Positions 370 through 33,344 of a DNA stretch of 42,871 bases are shown piece after piece. Within the stretch, counting starts at the first letter, position 1; every line of letters begins with the position of its first letter. The stretch covers positions 1 through 42,871 of the forward strand of contig CAMBSX010000004.1 of assembly GCA_945870655.1 (NCBI GenBank). Reading direction: 5' to 3'. The translations under genes and the position numbers were made by a program. Under the pieces are notes generated by a model that did no database searches, was not told where the DNA came from, and worked only from the letters and a program-made list of their open reading frames with translations. Source of the stretch: Chthoniobacter flavus (GTDB taxonomy: Bacteria; Verrucomicrobiota; Verrucomicrobiia; Chthoniobacterales; JACTMZ01).

Positions 370-813
370 TTAGAGCAGACCTTTTTTCGGTTCGCCGCCG
401 GGCGTGCCGACCGGCGGTCGAGCGTCGGTGCGCGGGAGGGCAGATTTGTTGGGGCTGACTTCGGATTTGCCGACGAAGGTGGCGCCGTCTTCGATGATAA
501 TACGGCCGGCGCGGAGATCGCCGATAAGTTGGGCGGTGGCTTTGAGTTCGACGCGCTCGGCGGCGTCAATGTTGCCCTGGACGGACCCGTGGATGATGAC
601 GGACTTTGATTTTACTTCGCCCTGCACATTGGCGCTTTTGCCGACCGTAAGGGTAGCGTTGGATTGGATTTCGCCTTCAATTTTTCCGTCAAAAACCAGG
701 TCGTTTTGGAACTTGAGGGTGCCTTTGATTTCCACATCGCTGGAAAGGTGGTTGCGGTTCGTTCCGCCGGTGGGTGATTCGCTCATGGGATTGACGATAT
801 TGCTGAGATTCAT
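370..813 (-). CDS. Bactofilin / polymer-forming cytoskeletal protein (DUF583)
   Basis: Translation contains SDVEIKGTLKFQNDLVFDGKIEGEIQSNATLTVGKSANVQGEVKSKSVIIHGSVQGNIDAAERVELKATAQLIGDLRAGRIIIEDGATFVGKSE, a typical bactofilin beta-helix. Start is likely MNLSNIV at 813 or MSESPTGG at 786; the ORF extends to 858. Confidence 0.9.
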   Translation of the reverse strand: MNLSNIVNPMSESPTGGTNRNHLSSDVEIKGTLKFQNDLVFDGKIEGEIQSNATLTVGKSANVQGEVKSKSVIIHGSVQGNIDAAERVELKATAQLIGDLRAGRIIIEDGATFVGKSEVSPNKSALPRTDARPPVGTPGGEPKKGLL

Positions 814-830
814 TGTTTGAAGAAAGGCCC

Positions 831-858
831 AAGTTAATGGACGGGTGCGGGGTGTCAA
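831..858 (-). promoter_or_regulatory. Candidate sigma70-type promoter for the bactofilin gene
   Basis: Minus strand TTGACA (853-858), 16-nt spacer, TAACTT (831-836); 17 nt between the -10 and the ATG at 813. Confidence 0.5.
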
Positions 859-908: not shown

Positions 909-2309
909 TCAGCCGGCGAGTTCTTCGGCGGGGTAGGTCCAGATTTCGCTCAAGGTGGGGTGATAGTGGGGGATTTTGACAAACTCGGCGGCAGTCGCAC
1001 GGTAGCGCAGGGCGACGACGACTTCGTGGATGAGTTCGGAGGCGTGGGGCCCGACGACGGCACCCCCGAGGAGTTCACCCGTTTTATGGTCGGCGAGCAA
1101 TTTGACGAAGCCGTCGGTTTTGCCGTGGACGATGGATTTGCCATGGTCGTCGAAGGGGTAACTCGCCGCGGCGAAGTCGATCCCCAATTCGGTCGCTTCG
1201 CGTTCGCCCAGGCCAACCATGGCGGCCTCAGGTTGGGTGAAGACGGCGAACAGACGGAGGCGGTAGTCGATCGTTTCGAGGGGTTCGTTTTTGCCGCGCA
1301 GGAGCCGTGCCGCATTGCGGGCGGCGATCTCGCCCTGCTCGATGGCGATGTGGACAATTTCCAGTTTCCCGGTGACGTCCCCCGCACCGAAAATATGCGG
1401 GACGGAGGTCTGCTGGGTGTCCGTGGTGGCCAAGGGATGGCCGGCCGGCGTGTCGAGACCGGCGGCAGCGAGATCAAGTCCGGCAGTGGCGGCGTCGCGT
1501 CCGAGCGCGAGCAGAATTTCGTCCGCCTCAAGCGTCTCCTCCCGGTCGTGGTGCGCGACGCGCAACCATTTCCCGCCCACCTTGCGTCCGACTTGGAGGA
1601 TTCGGCCGCCTAAGACAAATTTGGTCCCGTGCCGCTCCATGCCGTGCTGCACCGCATCGGCCACATCGCGGTCCATCGAGCTGAGGATCTGCTTGCTGCG
1701 CTGGACAACGGTGACGTCCACGCCGAGGGCGCGGTGGTAGTGGGCCATCTCGAGCGCGACGGGCCCGGCACCCAAAACGAGGAGCGATTTTGGGGGATGC
1801 GGATTGTCCAACACGTCATCACTGACCAGTGGCCCGGCCTCCGTGAGTCCGGGTATGTCGGGATGGCGGATGACGGAGCCCGTGGCGACAAGAATGGCGC
1901 GGGCGGTGATGGTTTGTTCCCCGCCTTGGCGGAGGTGCACCGTCAATTTGTCCGGGCCGGTGAACCGGGCGTGTCCCCGAACGAGTTCGAAGCGTCCGTT
2001 CTCGAGTTGCCCGGCACGGTAGTCGGCAAACCCAGAAATGAGGCGCTTTTTGCGTTCGATGATTTTCGGCCCGTCGAATCCGGGATTTTCGGCATACAGC
2101 CCGAACTCCCCGGCTTCGCGCATATCCTGCAGCCGGTTGGCCGACTCGATGAGTGTCTTGCTCGGCATGCAACCGCGCAGAATGCATAGCCCTCCGAGTT
2201 CTTCGGAGCCGTCGATGACCGCAGTGCGGAGGCCTTCCCCGGCTGCTGTGCGGGCGGCGGCGTAACCCGCACTCCCGCCGCCGACGACGACAAAATCGAA
2301 TTCATTCAT
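909..2309 (-). CDS. Class I pyridine nucleotide-disulfide oxidoreductase (dihydrolipoamide dehydrogenase / mercuric reductase-like)
   Basis: FDFVVVGGGSAGYAAARTAA (FAD Rossmann), GGLCILRGCMPSK (redox CX4C), LLVLGAGPVALEMA (NAD site), HIFGAGDVTG, C-terminal HYHPTLSEIW His-Glu motif. Confidence 0.88.
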   Translation of the reverse strand: MNEFDFVVVGGGSAGYAAARTAAGEGLRTAVIDGSEELGGLCILRGCMPSKTLIESANRLQDMREAGEFGLYAENPGFDGPKIIERKKRLISGFADYRAGQLENGRFELVRGHARFTGPDKLTVHLRQGGEQTITARAILVATGSVIRHPDIPGLTEAGPLVSDDVLDNPHPPKSLLVLGAGPVALEMAHYHRALGVDVTVVQRSKQILSSMDRDVADAVQHGMERHGTKFVLGGRILQVGRKVGGKWLRVAHHDREETLEADEILLALGRDAATAGLDLAAAGLDTPAGHPLATTDTQQTSVPHIFGAGDVTGKLEIVHIAIEQGEIAARNAARLLRGKNEPLETIDYRLRLFAVFTQPEAAMVGLGEREATELGIDFAAASYPFDDHGKSIVHGKTDGFVKLLADHKTGELLGGAVVGPHASELIHEVVVALRYRATAAEFVKIPHYHPTLSEIWTYPAEELAG

Positions 2310-3978
2310 CCCGTATCTTGTAAACGCGGAAGTAGGGGTTGGCGAACACCGGTTGGAGGAAGTGGGGGATCTTGCCTCCGCGGGCCAAGCGGACGATCAG
2401 CGGGTCACGGGGTGCGGGGAGGCCGAGGAGTGCGGTGGAGGTTGACACCACGCGTTCCGGCGCATCGGTTACCACGTACTTTGCTTGCCGCAAGCGGAGC
2501 TGGGTGAGGGCCGTGGCATCGTCCTCGGAGAGAAAAAAACGCGCCGTGTCGACCGTGCCCGGGAGGCTTTGATGAGAAGTCCCCGCGACCATGGGTCGTC
2601 CGCTCTGCCGGGCCAGAGCGGGTGAGATCCACCACGGGGCCAACACGCCCCCGTGCGGTTGGCTGCGCAGGAAGTCGGCGGTTTGCGCGAGGAGCGCGGC
2701 TTCTGCTCTCGCCTCCTGCCGCCGCGCCATTTCCTGCGGTGACGGGAAAATGCGCGCCTCCCATGCCGCGGCGACCGGCCAGAGGCTGGCCGCAAAGACG
2801 AGCCAGGCCAGCCAAGGCTTGGCCAAGGGGCGGAGGATCCAGGGCAGGGCGAGACAGAAAACGGAAGCCAGCCACGGATTCCACCGCGCCTGCCAACCGG
2901 TCAAGACGGTGACTACGGCAAGAAGGACGAGAACGACGACTGCAAGGGGATCGCGGACTTTGCCATAGTTCCAGACGAGGAGGAGCGGCGCGGGGACAAG
3001 GAGCCATCCGGTCCAGGCAAACATGGCCTGAGGCGTGGCACTTTGCAGTTCGCCGAGCAGCGCGGCCCACCGGGGGAAAAACTCCTGCACGACCGGATCC
3101 GGCCAAGGATCACGGAATCCCTCCAAAGCCCACGCGGCGAGGGCGAGGCTTGCGGTGAGTAGCAGACCGCGTCGCCAGACGGCCGGGTAGGCTGCTTTGC
3201 GTAGAGCAACGGCCCGGGCGAGTTCCTGCGTGGCGAGCAGGACGAGCGGTTCGAACCAGGAAACCCAAAGAGCAAAGCCCCACAGGCTGGCGGAGGCCCA
3301 TGCCCAGGCCGGACGCGCCGTGCGGACAAACGCGAAATTGGCGGCGAGCGCGGTGACAGTCAGGGCAACGAGCAGCGATTGATGGTCGGGCCGTCCGAGG
3401 GCGAAGGCATGGGTGAGCGCCGGCGACACGGCGAAAAGAAACAGCATGGGTCCACGTGGTCGCAGGTCGATCTTACGGGACCAAAAAAAGAGAAAAAGCA
3501 AAGTAAGGAGCCCGAGGAGCGGCGAGACCCATGCGCCGGCCAGCTCGGGTGGACGGACAAAGATGCCCAAGGCCGCGATCAGATAATCCATCGGCGCGGT
3601 GGTATGCGGGACGGTGCCGGCGGGATGGTTTTCAAAATCGTGGGCGCGAACGATGGTGCCGGGTCCGGCGGCGACCAAGGCCGCACGCTGCATGCGGCTG
3701 TGGCAGTCGCCGTCGGCCAGCACCACGAGGATGTCGCCGTCGGCGAGGCGGACCATGACCTGGCCGCGATTCCAGGTAACCGCCGCGAAGAACAAGACGG
3801 CGAGCAAGAAGGCTCCGGCGAGGGGCGGGACGATTTTCGGCACGGGCGACATCGTGCGGGAGACGGTACGGGAAAAGCCAACCGGAAAAGACTCCCCGAG
3901 GTCCTTTCCGCTCTGGGCGGGCGTGCCGGAAGAAAGCATCGGCGTTTCCGCCTCCCGCGGCGAATTTCCCCCTCCCAT
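2302..3978 (-). CDS. Multi-membrane-spanning STT3/AglB-like (GT-C fold) protein; oligosaccharyltransferase-family homologue candidate
   Basis: Hydrophobic polytopic protein with DGDCHSRMQRA near the first external loop, LGRPDHQSLLV resembling the AglB/STT3 GxxDHH motif, and APWWISPALARQSGRPMVA at the position of the WWDxG motif. Confidence 0.55.
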   Translation of the reverse strand: MGGGNSPREAETPMLSSGTPAQSGKDLGESFPVGFSRTVSRTMSPVPKIVPPLAGAFLLAVLFFAAVTWNRGQVMVRLADGDILVVLADGDCHSRMQRAALVAAGPGTIVRAHDFENHPAGTVPHTTAPMDYLIAALGIFVRPPELAGAWVSPLLGLLTLLFLFFWSRKIDLRPRGPMLFLFAVSPALTHAFALGRPDHQSLLVALTVTALAANFAFVRTARPAWAWASASLWGFALWVSWFEPLVLLATQELARAVALRKAAYPAVWRRGLLLTASLALAAWALEGFRDPWPDPVVQEFFPRWAALLGELQSATPQAMFAWTGWLLVPAPLLLVWNYGKVRDPLAVVVLVLLAVVTVLTGWQARWNPWLASVFCLALPWILRPLAKPWLAWLVFAASLWPVAAAWEARIFPSPQEMARRQEARAEAALLAQTADFLRSQPHGGVLAPWWISPALARQSGRPMVAGTSHQSLPGTVDTARFFLSEDDATALTQLRLRQAKYVVTDAPERVVSTSTALLGLPAPRDPLIVRLARGGKIPHFLQPVFANPYFRVYKIRDE

Positions 3979-4120
3979 GGGGCGGAGGGGCGGTTGAAAT
4001 CATCAAGTGCCAAAATTTCACTCCCAGAGCCCTGCGTGGAAACTTGGGAGGGCGAATCGTTTACGGCTCGCTAAACTCACCATTTGCTGCTATTGCTATC
4101 CGCGCCAGTTACTTATCCGC

Positions 4121-5065
4121 ATGATGCTTCGCTCCTCCAGACTTCGCGCCCTTGGGATGCGGTCGGGCCTTAATTTTTCGCTGGTCAAGCAGATGTCCCT
4201 CGCCGGGTTGTTCTTGGGCATCTGCGCATCCCTTGTCCCTGAGGCTCAGGCAGGCACCTCCGGCTACCGGGGCCTAATTCTTGGCGACAGCCCCGTGGTT
4301 TACTACGAGTTTGAGGAGACGAGCGGCACCACGGCGTTTAATTCGGCCAATACCGGGAGCCGCTATGACGGCTCCTTCAATTTGAGTCGGGGGCCGATCG
4401 CCGTCAACCGGCCTAGTTTTGCCCAGGGTGGGGCCTCCTACGACTTCGGTGGGGGGGGTGACTACGGCGGGGTTATTGTGGCCTCGCCCTTGGCCAACTC
4501 GCTGACGGAATGGACGGTTTCATTGTGGGTCAGCTATGACAGCAGTAAAACGGCGGGGTCCAACTTTTTGTCCAACGACCAGCTTGGCTGGAATAACGAC
4601 GTGCTGATCGGTATCGGTCCCGAAGAGGGCACCGAGGTCGGACGAGGTCAGGTCGGGGTCGTCCAGCAGGGAGCCCCGGGTGCGGAGCGCGATTTCGCCG
4701 GTGCTCCGCTCACGGCTGGCAAGTGGCACCATATCGCTGTGACCGGAAGCACCGCTTCGGGAAAGCTTTCGCTTTTCATCGACGGTGTGCTTGCCGCCTC
4801 GGATGAGAACTTGGTCAACGGCGTCACCTTCAACGGGGCCGACGGCCTGGGCACGGCAAGCCTGAACATCGGAGCGTCTCGGACCGATGGCTTGCGGCCT
4901 TACGACGGGTTGCTCGACGAGTTGGCTATCTTTGACCACGTGCTGCCGCCGGAGCGGATCGCCGCCCACGCCGCGGCTGTCCCTGAGCCGGCCACCCACG
5001 CTCTGCTTGCCCTCGGTGCCTTGAGTATTGCCGGCTACGCCTTGCGTCGGCGCACGCGGAAGTAA
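4121..5065 (+). CDS. Secreted LamG/concanavalin A-like domain protein with PEP-CTERM sorting signal
   Basis: Signal peptide (LAGLFLGICASLVPEAQA), LamG-like segment (SPVVYYEFEETSGTTAFNSA...LSLFIDGVLAASDE...YDGLLDELAIFDHVLPPERIAAH), C-terminus VPEPATHALLALGALSIAGYALRRRTRK. Confidence 0.88.
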   Translation: MMLRSSRLRALGMRSGLNFSLVKQMSLAGLFLGICASLVPEAQAGTSGYRGLILGDSPVVYYEFEETSGTTAFNSANTGSRYDGSFNLSRGPIAVNRPSFAQGGASYDFGGGGDYGGVIVASPLANSLTEWTVSLWVSYDSSKTAGSNFLSNDQLGWNNDVLIGIGPEEGTEVGRGQVGVVQQGAPGAERDFAGAPLTAGKWHHIAVTGSTASGKLSLFIDGVLAASDENLVNGVTFNGADGLGTASLNIGASRTDGLRPYDGLLDELAIFDHVLPPERIAAHAAAVPEPATHALLALGALSIAGYALRRRTRK

Positions 5066-30046: not shown

Positions 30047-31459
30047 GTGACGAGAGTTACGGCAATTTTCTTGGCGGTGTTTGGTCTCGTGGTCGGGGAG
30101 GCGTCCGGCAGCCCTGCGGCGCGCGCTCTCGGCAATGCTTTTGCCGACGTCTATGAGAAGGTGGCCCCTAGCGTGGTGGTGCTCGAGGTGACCAAGCCGC
30201 AGGGCGGGGACGACAACTTCGACTGGCAATCCCTCTTCGGCGCGCCGGGTGGTCCCCGTCGTCCGCGCGCCCAGGAGAGCGAGGGGTCGGGATTTGTCAT
30301 CGGGGCAGACGGCTACATTTTGACCAATGCGCATGTCATCGAAGGGGCCGACCCGGAGAACGGGGTGGTCGCGCGGCGCCAAGACGGCCGGCGTCTTCCG
30401 CTCAAAGTGGTGGGGGTGGATGAAAAGACGGATCTGGCGGTGCTCAAAGCCGAGGTCACGGATCTGCCGGCCGTCGAGTGGGGAGACAGTGACAAGATGC
30501 GGGTCGGGGAATTTGTCTGCGGCATCGGGGCACCGTTCGAGTTGGACTACACGTTGACCGCAGGAGTGATCAGCGCGAAGGGCCGGAGCAACCTGACCAG
30601 TACGGTTTATGAAGATTACCTGCAGACCGACGCAGCGATCAACCCGGGCAACAGCGGGGGCCCTTTGGTTGACCTTGACGGCAAAGTTATCGGGGTCAAC
30701 ACCCTGATCAACGGTCTGAACAGCAGCCTGAGTTTTGCCATCCCTGCGAAGCTGGCCCGGGCGGTGAGCAAGCAACTGATCGCGGGGGGGCGCGTGGTGC
30801 GACCGTGGTTGGGCATCCGCATCGAGACGCTCGCCGACCAACCGGCCCTGCAGAAAGTTCTCGGCTTGGACAATGGTGTGGTGGTGAGGGAAATTTTCGC
30901 CGACACGCCGGCGGCGCGCAGTGAATTGCAGCCTGCCGATGTGGTCGTCGATGTGGATGGCGAACCCGTGGCGAGTGCCCGTGATTTGCAACGAGCCGTC
31001 CTCAACAAAGGCATCGGCGCGACCGTCAATCTCAAGGTGTGGCGCCGGCAGGAGGGTGATTACCGGACGGTCCCGGTCCAAGCCGAGGAACTGCCGGCGG
31101 CACCCGGGACCAAGCAGGCGGCCGCTCGTTCTCGGCCGTTCCGCCCGCCTGTCCCCGGCAGCGAGGCGGCGGCAGATCCCTTCACCGCCTTTGGACTGCA
31201 GGTGCAAGATTTGCCCGATGAAGTTGCGGCGGAAATGTCGCTCCCCGCCGGCGGTGTCATCGTCACGCACATTGAACCGGGTGGTCCTGCCGCGCTGGCC
31301 GGATTGCAGCGGCGTGATGTCATCACCGCGGCCGGTGATGAGGCGGTTGGCAACAGCGAGGGATTGGCCGATGTGCTGGGTAATTTGGCCGAGGGCAACG
31401 GAGCGGTCTTGCTCGTCGAGCGCCAAGGCAAAGAAACGTACGCGATCCTTAAAAAGTAG
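30047..31459 (+). CDS. DegP/HtrA-type trypsin-like serine protease with two PDZ domains
   Basis: Signal peptide after the GTG start; GSGFVIGADGYILTNAHVIEGAD (His), DEKTDLAVLK (Asp), INPGNSGGPLVDLDGKVIGVNT (Ser); PDZ segments VVREIFADTPAARSELQPADVVVDVDGEPV and GVIVTHIEPGGPAALAGLQRRDVITAAGDEAV. Confidence 0.95.
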   Translation: MTRVTAIFLAVFGLVVGEASGSPAARALGNAFADVYEKVAPSVVVLEVTKPQGGDDNFDWQSLFGAPGGPRRPRAQESEGSGFVIGADGYILTNAHVIEGADPENGVVARRQDGRRLPLKVVGVDEKTDLAVLKAEVTDLPAVEWGDSDKMRVGEFVCGIGAPFELDYTLTAGVISAKGRSNLTSTVYEDYLQTDAAINPGNSGGPLVDLDGKVIGVNTLINGLNSSLSFAIPAKLARAVSKQLIAGGRVVRPWLGIRIETLADQPALQKVLGLDNGVVVREIFADTPAARSELQPADVVVDVDGEPVASARDLQRAVLNKGIGATVNLKVWRRQEGDYRTVPVQAEELPAAPGTKQAAARSRPFRPPVPGSEAAADPFTAFGLQVQDLPDEVAAEMSLPAGGVIVTHIEPGGPAALAGLQRRDVITAAGDEAVGNSEGLADVLGNLAEGNGAVLLVERQGKETYAILKK

Positions 31460-33344
31460 CGTTGAGGACCCGGCGCAGGGCGGCGACGGCTTCGACCGGG
31501 GCGATGCGCGTCATGCAACGGAAGTCGATCGGGCACTCGCGGCGGAAACATGGACTGCATTCCACTTTGTGGCGCAGGATCTGGTGGAAGTCTCCGAGCG
31601 GTGCGGTGAATTCCGGTTCGGTCGAGCCGAAAACGGCAACGGTCGGAATGCCGAGAAAGGCGGCGAGGTGCATGGTACCGGTGTCGTTGGTCAGCAAGGC
31701 ATCGCAGCTGGCCAGCTCGTCCATGAGTTGGTCGAGCGTGGTTTGTCCGATGCGGTTCGAAATGGTGCCGCTGCAGGCGTTGACAATGGTCTCGCCGGCC
31801 GCTTTGTCGCCTGGCACCCCGAAAAGAACCCAGGAGGCGGGTGAGTGCTTGTCGAATTCTTGCACGGCCGCGGCGAACCGTTCGGCCGGCCAGCGTTTGG
31901 CGGGTCCGTATTCCGCGCCCGGACACACCCCGATGCGCGGGGTCTTGTCCGGCGGTGTCCGTTCTGGCCCCCGCCGGAAGGTGGCGGCTTCGGGTCCGAC
32001 CGGAGCGCCGCAGAAAGCGACCAGCTTCCTGTAACGATCGGCATGGTGGCCGCCTGAGTCCGGAGCGAAGGACGGGATGCGTTTGAGCAACCAGCGGCGC
32101 CAATGCCCTGGGTATCCGACAATGTGGGGGATGCGGAGGGCGCGGGCCTCGAGCGCGGAGCGCAGCGAATTGGGAAAAAGAATGGCCGCGTCGAAGCTTG
32201 CCTCAACCCGCCGCGCCAAGGCGCGTGGAGACTCCCCCGGTTGAATTTCGATCACCTCGTCGACGGCGGGGACGCGTCGCCAGAGTGCGGCCAATTTGGC
32301 CGGAGTTAGGACAGTGAGGTGGAGATCGGGACGGCTCTTCCGGCATGCTTGCACCGCGGGAATGCTCATGACGGCATCGCCGAGCCAATTGCTCGAGCGG
32401 ATCAAAAGGCGGAAGGATTGGAGATCGGCAACCGCCTCTGCTTCGGGCGGATGGAATCCGCGCCGGGTGTGGCCCAAGAGGAAAGGGCCTGGGGTTTTCC
32501 ATCGGTTGTGGACCCAGAACCAATCCGGCGGCCCGGCTGAAATCTGGCGCTCGAGGGTGCGGTTGAGCTCGAAAGTGAGGCCCTCCACAGACTGGCCGCG
32601 CGGTTCGAAGGGGGGCTCAATGATGCAGCGCCAGCGCGCGATTCCGGTGGTATGGATGGCCACCGAGACAAGAGGTGCGCCGGTGCGCTCCGCGATGATG
32701 GCGGCCAGCGGCGAGGTGGACGCGAATTTGCGGAAGAGGGGGGTCCAAAGGGCGCCGTCTCCGGCATGCTGGTCGATCAGGATGGCAAGTACCCCGCCTT
32801 TTTCCACCAGATCGACCGCGTCAAGGTAGCCCTTGCGCCGGTCGAAGGTCCGCAATCCGAGCCGTTGCCGGCTGCGTTCAATCAGGCGGTTGATGTACTT
32901 GTTGCGCTGGGATTGGAAAACGGCCCCAACCGGAAATTCGCGGATGCGGCCGATGAGTTGCGCGTAAAGCTCCCAGTTGCCGATGTGGTTGATGGCCATG
33001 ACCACACCACGACCCTGTTCGAGGGTGGCGCGGAGAGCGGGGAGTCCGATCAGATCAACCCGGGCTTGCACCTTTTCTTCCGGCAAGCGGGCGAGTCGCG
33101 GCACGCTGAGCAGGTTTGCGCCTAGGGTGCGGAAGTGCTGCCGCACGGTGCGCCGGATTTCGCGATCGCTCATTCCCCCGCCAAAGGCGATGGCCACATT
33201 GCGCTGGGCCAACCGGCGGTAACCGGGGAGCACGGCCCAGGCGACCAGACCGAGAAGGCCGCCAAGCCGAAAGGCCAGCTTGAGGGGGAACCGGCCGAGC
33301 ACGGAAAGGAGCGCCAAGGCTAGCAAGTAAACCGCGTAATCCAT
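31449..33344 (-). CDS. Fusion: N-terminal LpxL/HtrB-like lipid A acyltransferase and C-terminal GT9 heptosyltransferase
   Basis: N-terminal GRGVVMAINHIGNWELYAQLIGR (HX4E acyltransferase motif), FQSQRNKYINRLIERSRQRLG, LIDQHAG. C-terminal FRLLIRSSNWLGDAVMSIPAVQACRKSRPDLHLTVLTPAKLAALW..., IGVCPGAEYGPAKRWPAERFA, CDALLTNDTGTMHLAAFLGIPTVAVFGSTEPEFTAPLG, CSPCFRRECPIDFRCM. Single 631-codon frame. Confidence 0.9.
   Translation of the reverse strand: MDYAVYLLALALLSVLGRFPLKLAFRLGGLLGLVAWAVLPGYRRLAQRNVAIAFGGGMSDREIRRTVRQHFRTLGANLLSVPRLARLPEEKVQARVDLIGLPALRATLEQGRGVVMAINHIGNWELYAQLIGRIREFPVGAVFQSQRNKYINRLIERSRQRLGLRTFDRRKGYLDAVDLVEKGGVLAILIDQHAGDGALWTPLFRKFASTSPLAAIIAERTGAPLVSVAIHTTGIARWRCIIEPPFEPRGQSVEGLTFELNRTLERQISAGPPDWFWVHNRWKTPGPFLLGHTRRGFHPPEAEAVADLQSFRLLIRSSNWLGDAVMSIPAVQACRKSRPDLHLTVLTPAKLAALWRRVPAVDEVIEIQPGESPRALARRVEASFDAAILFPNSLRSALEARALRIPHIVGYPGHWRRWLLKRIPSFAPDSGGHHADRYRKLVAFCGAPVGPEAATFRRGPERTPPDKTPRIGVCPGAEYGPAKRWPAERFAAAVQEFDKHSPASWVLFGVPGDKAAGETIVNACSGTISNRIGQTTLDQLMDELASCDALLTNDTGTMHLAAFLGIPTVAVFGSTEPEFTAPLGDFHQILRHKVECSPCFRRECPIDFRCMTRIAPVEAVAALRRVLNATF

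Follow-up and report, generated by a model that had tools for sequence, protein, structure and literature searches.

The gene on the minus strand at positions 2302–3843 of the window (the whole 42,871-nucleotide stretch that was analysed) encodes a protein that, judged by sequence profiles and a predicted structure, belongs to the STT3/AglB superfamily of GT-C proteins. STT3 enzymes are the textbook readers of N-X-S/T. The best reading of this protein, to which we give an even chance, is a periplasm-facing transferase that would take a glycan from a lipid carrier and attach it to an acceptor, probably a peptide, selected without an N-X-S/T pocket. The gene and its motifs are as follows.

2302..3843, minus strand: STT3/AglB-superfamily GT-C membrane protein, likeliest extent (513 amino acids; GTG start conserved in congeners)
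3688..3714, minus strand: EL1 motif D44-x-D46-C-x-x-R50 (residues 44–52), from alignments
3379..3396, minus strand: GRPDHQ (residues 150–155), counterpart of GxxDHH, invariant in 79/79 homologues
3049..3060, minus strand: LLGE (residues 262–265), TIXE equivalent from alignments; family consensus TIGE
2884..2886, minus strand: R320, aligned with the (pyro)phosphate-binding Arg (PglB R375) by alignment register
2620..2637, minus strand: P403-W404-W405-I-S-P408, at the position of WWDxG in ungapped register

The open reading frame taken as the gene in the first-pass annotation (2302–3978, minus strand, 558 amino acids) is present, though its start was placed too far upstream. Comparison of congeners indicates that the protein probably begins at the GTG at 3843 and has 513 rather than 558 residues, because five congeners share this codon (beginning 'VPKI') and in L002, one of the five, a stop codon immediately precedes it. 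An alternative start, the ATG at 3852, would give 516 residues. The motifs DGDCHSR, GRPDHQ, APWWISPALARQ and SGRPMVAG all occur in the sequence in the order originally described. Model helices and hydrophobicity suggest ~11 transmembrane helices, compared with 13 in STT3/AglB/PglB, and in the AlphaFold2 model the soluble domain after residue 393 is short (~120 amino acids).

The proposed STT3/AglB-like identity is borne out by sequence profile, profile–profile alignment and fold. The AlphaFold2 model (pLDDT 95.2, pTM 0.92) was compared with known structures by Foldseek, a check suggested at the outset for PglB and AglB, and the best 16 of 266 matches are all STT3 or AglB. E-values are 5.4e-13 for STT3 (7oci_F), 5.6e-11 for AglB and 1.1e-7 for PglB, followed by DPY19 (2.7e-7), ArnT (8e-5), AftD (8e-3) and PMT (0.055), so that ArnT and PMT lie far behind STT3 (about 5e-13). 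Placement in an unrelated GT-C clade such as PMT/ArnT, named at the outset as the refuting outcome, did not occur. The family profile also finds the C-terminal globular domains of AglB in the PDB (3vgp, 6e-6; 3vu0, 8e-6), adding the C-terminal core domain to the STT3-type fold, and HHalign places the family with bacterial STT3s at an E-value of 3.6e-22. TIGR04154 (archaeo_STT3) is matched by 75 of 79 members, with a best E-value of 2.7e-15; the window protein scores 16.5 bits against a cut-off of 450. No Pfam or NCBIfam model matches the family above cut-off, a Pfam search with PF02516 gave no match to it, and a search of the open-access literature found no description of it.

Most of the catalytic centre is conserved. 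All counts refer to 79 family homologues with identities down to 36%. D46, in the first DxD motif in EL1, aligns with the catalytic, metal-binding Asp of STT3/AglB (the GND Asp) in 78/79 sequences, a role described for AglB D47 (PMC8342417). D153 corresponds to AglB D161 and is invariant (79/79). Two residues further on, Gln155 stands in place of the metal ligand AglB His163, again in every sequence, so that the second DxD/DxE/DxH motif lacks one of its two metal ligands; sister clades A3 and A4 retain His at this position. At the TIXE-like positions the Glu (E265) is invariant, I or V is found in 71/79 and T in only 42/79. In AglB the sequon peptide pairs with the Glu of TIXE and with the TIXE main chain (PMC8342417). 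R320 is invariant, and the equivalent PglB R375 binds phosphate (PMC7226087). The near-invariance of D46, D153, E265 and R320 across these sequences points to selection on an active site. One distant member (L126, genome G270) has GRPRHQ, with the conserved Asp replaced by Arg, and is possibly inactive.

The sequon-reading position is where the family departs from STT3. The ungapped line-up reads VISWWDYGHWI in AfAglB, VLASWPYGHAI in L135, ILTHLDYGPEI in L130 and VLAPWWISPAL in the window protein. In this register, which is based on sequence and profile alignment, the W-W-D of STT3 corresponds to P403-W404-W405 and WWDxG is represented by P-W-W-x-S-P, with Trp405 in place of the Asp. The first-pass annotation was right that the WWD motif is degenerate and its Asp lost, although it took the WW of WWISP for the WW of WWD and thus read the replacement as Ile, one residue off. 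The family alignment proposed there as a check shows the W404-W405 pair to be invariant in 79/79 homologues and, like GRPDHQ, no chance resemblance. The DK/MI motif is also missing: the +3 position carries E, D or A instead of K, and MxxI is absent. Tyr468 of PglB contacts the N-acetyl group of the donor; in the same register it falls on Pro408. Since WWDxG, DK/MI and one metal ligand were looked for and are lacking, the protein should not be classed with the oligosaccharyltransferases, although it lies in the STT3/AglB superfamily.

Under the preferred reading, D46, D153 and E265 would position a divalent metal and R320 would hold the phosphate of a polyprenyl-linked sugar. The acceptor, probably a peptide, would extend along the TIXE-like strand, placing its nucleophile between D46 and E265 for attack on the anomeric carbon. 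It would be chosen by something other than N-X-S/T, because the pocket for Ser/Thr at +2 (WWD and DK/MI) is replaced by a hydrophobic A-P-W-W-x-S-P surface. The conserved catalytic residues and the TIXE-like strand thus suggest an active transferase with a lipid-linked donor, and the analogy with AglB, where TIXE pairs with the sequon through its Glu and main chain, favours a peptide acceptor. The Glu is no proof of this, since the uncharacterised A4 paralogues carry one too. Points against the reading as a whole are the change of the metal ligand H163 to Q155, the change of Tyr468 to Pro408, the lack of glycan-assembly neighbours and the failure of PF02516 to find the family. A narrower version, with less than even odds, is that of an STT3-derived bacterial protein glycosyltransferase with a sequon other than N-X-S/T, or with a different amino-acid acceptor, which the conserved A-P-W-W-x-S-P pocket would read.

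Homologues occur in 36 of 57 sampled relatives, usually as one copy per genome, and the named matches are Chthoniobacterales/Spartobacteria, Chthoniobacter flavus Ellin428 (copy at L063) among them. Sampling of the wider class gave matches in 58 of 286 genomes, three of them weak, at E about 1e-5, and the others between 4e-50 and 6e-227. In a separate sample, the class of G452, a bacterial STT3 (L170) is the best match, at no better than 2.5e-17. The clade has so far been seen only in Verrucomicrobiae. PF02516 detects no canonical STT3 elsewhere in the source genome, which is 88% complete, and the 57 sampled relatives yielded none either.

In the tree, a branch supported at 97/99 sets the PWWxSP clade apart. 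It holds 29 rows, 16 from Chthoniobacterales and 13 from elsewhere, and some of the distant ones have long branches. Outside the clade fall paralogues with DYG-like motifs and TIGR04154-type bacterial STT3s. A few members have variants of the motif, namely APYW (L118), ASWW (L120) and STWI (a second L120 copy). The two L120 genes (genome G071) lie in tandem, the second with STWIHSP for APWWxSP. The A4 paralogues are a second STT3-like family in Verrucomicrobiae; the member scanned has no significant Pfam match, and L130 carries two copies in tandem (e.g. L130:2001-3848, minus strand). Bacterial STT3-type proteins with an intact WWD also occur in the phylum (L136, L172), and L135:649-2781 (minus strand) matches TIGR04154 at 2.9e-86.

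The genes flanking the STT3-like gene in the window are as follows.

370..858, minus strand: bactofilin (PF04519)
909..2309, minus strand: pyridine nucleotide-disulphide oxidoreductase, dihydrolipoyl dehydrogenase-like (Pfam)
4007–5065, plus strand: LamG/PEP-CTERM gene, with PEP-CTERM and LamG domains

Open reading frame coordinates confirm the 8-nucleotide overlap with the oxidoreductase noted earlier, and the PEP-CTERM gene is indeed a divergent neighbour. The oxidoreductase lies between the STT3-like gene and the bactofilin(s) in 19 of 68 relatives. Bactofilins are cell-envelope scaffolds. One or more are found within 4 kb downstream in 42 of the 57 loci with enough sequence, and 52/57 genomes have bactofilin irrespective of the STT3-like gene, so that their adjacency is only suggestive of a link. 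In many loci a bactofilin with CxxC zinc-ribbon-like segments adjoins a plain one downstream of the gene (L063:11614-12426, L074:10163-11011). In relatives gyrB is usually about 0.1–0.35 kb from the gene, divergently in 26/51; in the source genome the PEP-CTERM/LamG gene sits between the two. This neighbour is peculiar to the source genome, and a functional link to it was rejected. Of the 36 genomes with the gene, 35 have exosortase, as do 12 of the 21 without it (Fisher p 0.00025); this was not read as evidence of a functional link, as the genomes lacking exosortase are concentrated in a few families and one of them has the gene. In more distant members of the family the gene comes after M16 peptidase and DUF1844 genes instead. 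Glycan assembly is not represented among these neighbours (gyrB, bactofilins, oxidoreductase, M16 peptidase, DUF1844), and bactofilin occurs almost throughout the order; the context is therefore no more than a hint of an envelope role. Elsewhere in the window, a 631-amino-acid open reading frame (31449–33344, minus strand) combines lipid A acyltransferase and GT9 heptosyltransferase domains.

The first-pass annotation offered two options, an oligosaccharyltransferase that has diverged to use another acceptor, or an acceptor that is not a protein, and as a pair these fit the evidence. A non-protein acceptor is a substantial possibility, though short of even: the same fold and chemistry would serve to add a lipid-linked sugar to a polysaccharide or lipid of the envelope, as in ArnT or AftD/Emb. 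It would suit the loss of the entire Ser/Thr+2 pocket, the short soluble domain (~120 amino acids after residue 393) and the bactofilins as the most conserved downstream neighbours (42/57). Against it, the family retains both the D46/E265 pair and the TIXE-like Glu, by which STT3 holds the amide of the acceptor Asn, the likeness to the folds of ArnT and AftD is much weaker (8e-5, 8e-3), and bactofilins occur in 52/57 genomes regardless of the gene.

The remaining explanations are weighed by the same residues and folds. STT3 homology and the conserved catalytic core would also be expected of an ordinary N-X-S/T oligosaccharyltransferase that reads its sequon with other residues. With WWD changed to PWW in the clade, E, D or A at a DK/MI Lys or Ile position, and WWDxG described as necessary for catalysis in oligosaccharyltransferases (PMC5131992), this is unlikely. 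It is very unlikely that the protein is a catalytically dead homologue retained as a scaffold; the His to Gln change and the loss of D153 in L126 would agree with that, and the near-invariance of D46, D153, E265 and R320 down to 36% identity speaks against it. A PMT- or ArnT-type protein with a coincidental likeness to STT3 would share the GT-C fold common to them all, and is exceedingly improbable given the order and E-values of the Foldseek matches, the AglB-specific C-terminal core match, the TIGR04154 matches and the HHalign result with bacterial STT3s.

If the protein glycosyltransferase reading is true, the family would provide a protein-glycosylation system for Verrucomicrobiae. More generally, it could act as a glycan transferase in soil and freshwater Verrucomicrobiae, for which no canonical STT3 appeared in the 57 relatives sampled. 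In this widespread bacterial clade the catalytic centre and TIXE-like strand are preserved while the acceptor pocket is rebuilt in one consistent way, which makes acceptor switching within the fold testable.

The closest known system is the catalytic subunit of oligosaccharyltransferases (AglB/STT3/PglB; PF02516, TIGR04154; CAZy GT66). It shares with the family the GT-C fold, the C-terminal core domain, the first Asp motif, the Asp of the second motif, the TIXE-like Glu and the phosphate-binding Arg. The family differs in having PWWxSP for WWDxG, no DK/MI, Gln rather than H/D/E as third residue of the second motif, a shorter C-terminal domain and scores below the PF02516 and TIGR04154 cut-offs. 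TIGR04154-type STT3s of Verrucomicrobiota (L135/L169, L170, L171) align over 435 columns, have GRPDHx as in the family and have likewise lost the WWD Asp (SWP, DWS), whereas they keep the His in GRPDHH, have a longer C-terminal domain and form a separate branch. The A4 paralogues (L129–L132), STT3-like proteins matched by HHalign over almost the full length (1.7e-32), differ in RPDHH and a mostly DYG-like WWD position, and form a separate clade (100/98). ArnT and PMT have the GT-C architecture in common with the family, with much weaker fold matches and no AglB core domain. DPY19 C-mannosyltransferases, whose GT-C fold is also related to STT3, match less well (2.7e-7) and are metal-independent, with no obvious metal-ligand residues. 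Like the activity proposed here, DPY19 reads a peptide acceptor without WWD (PMC10154233).
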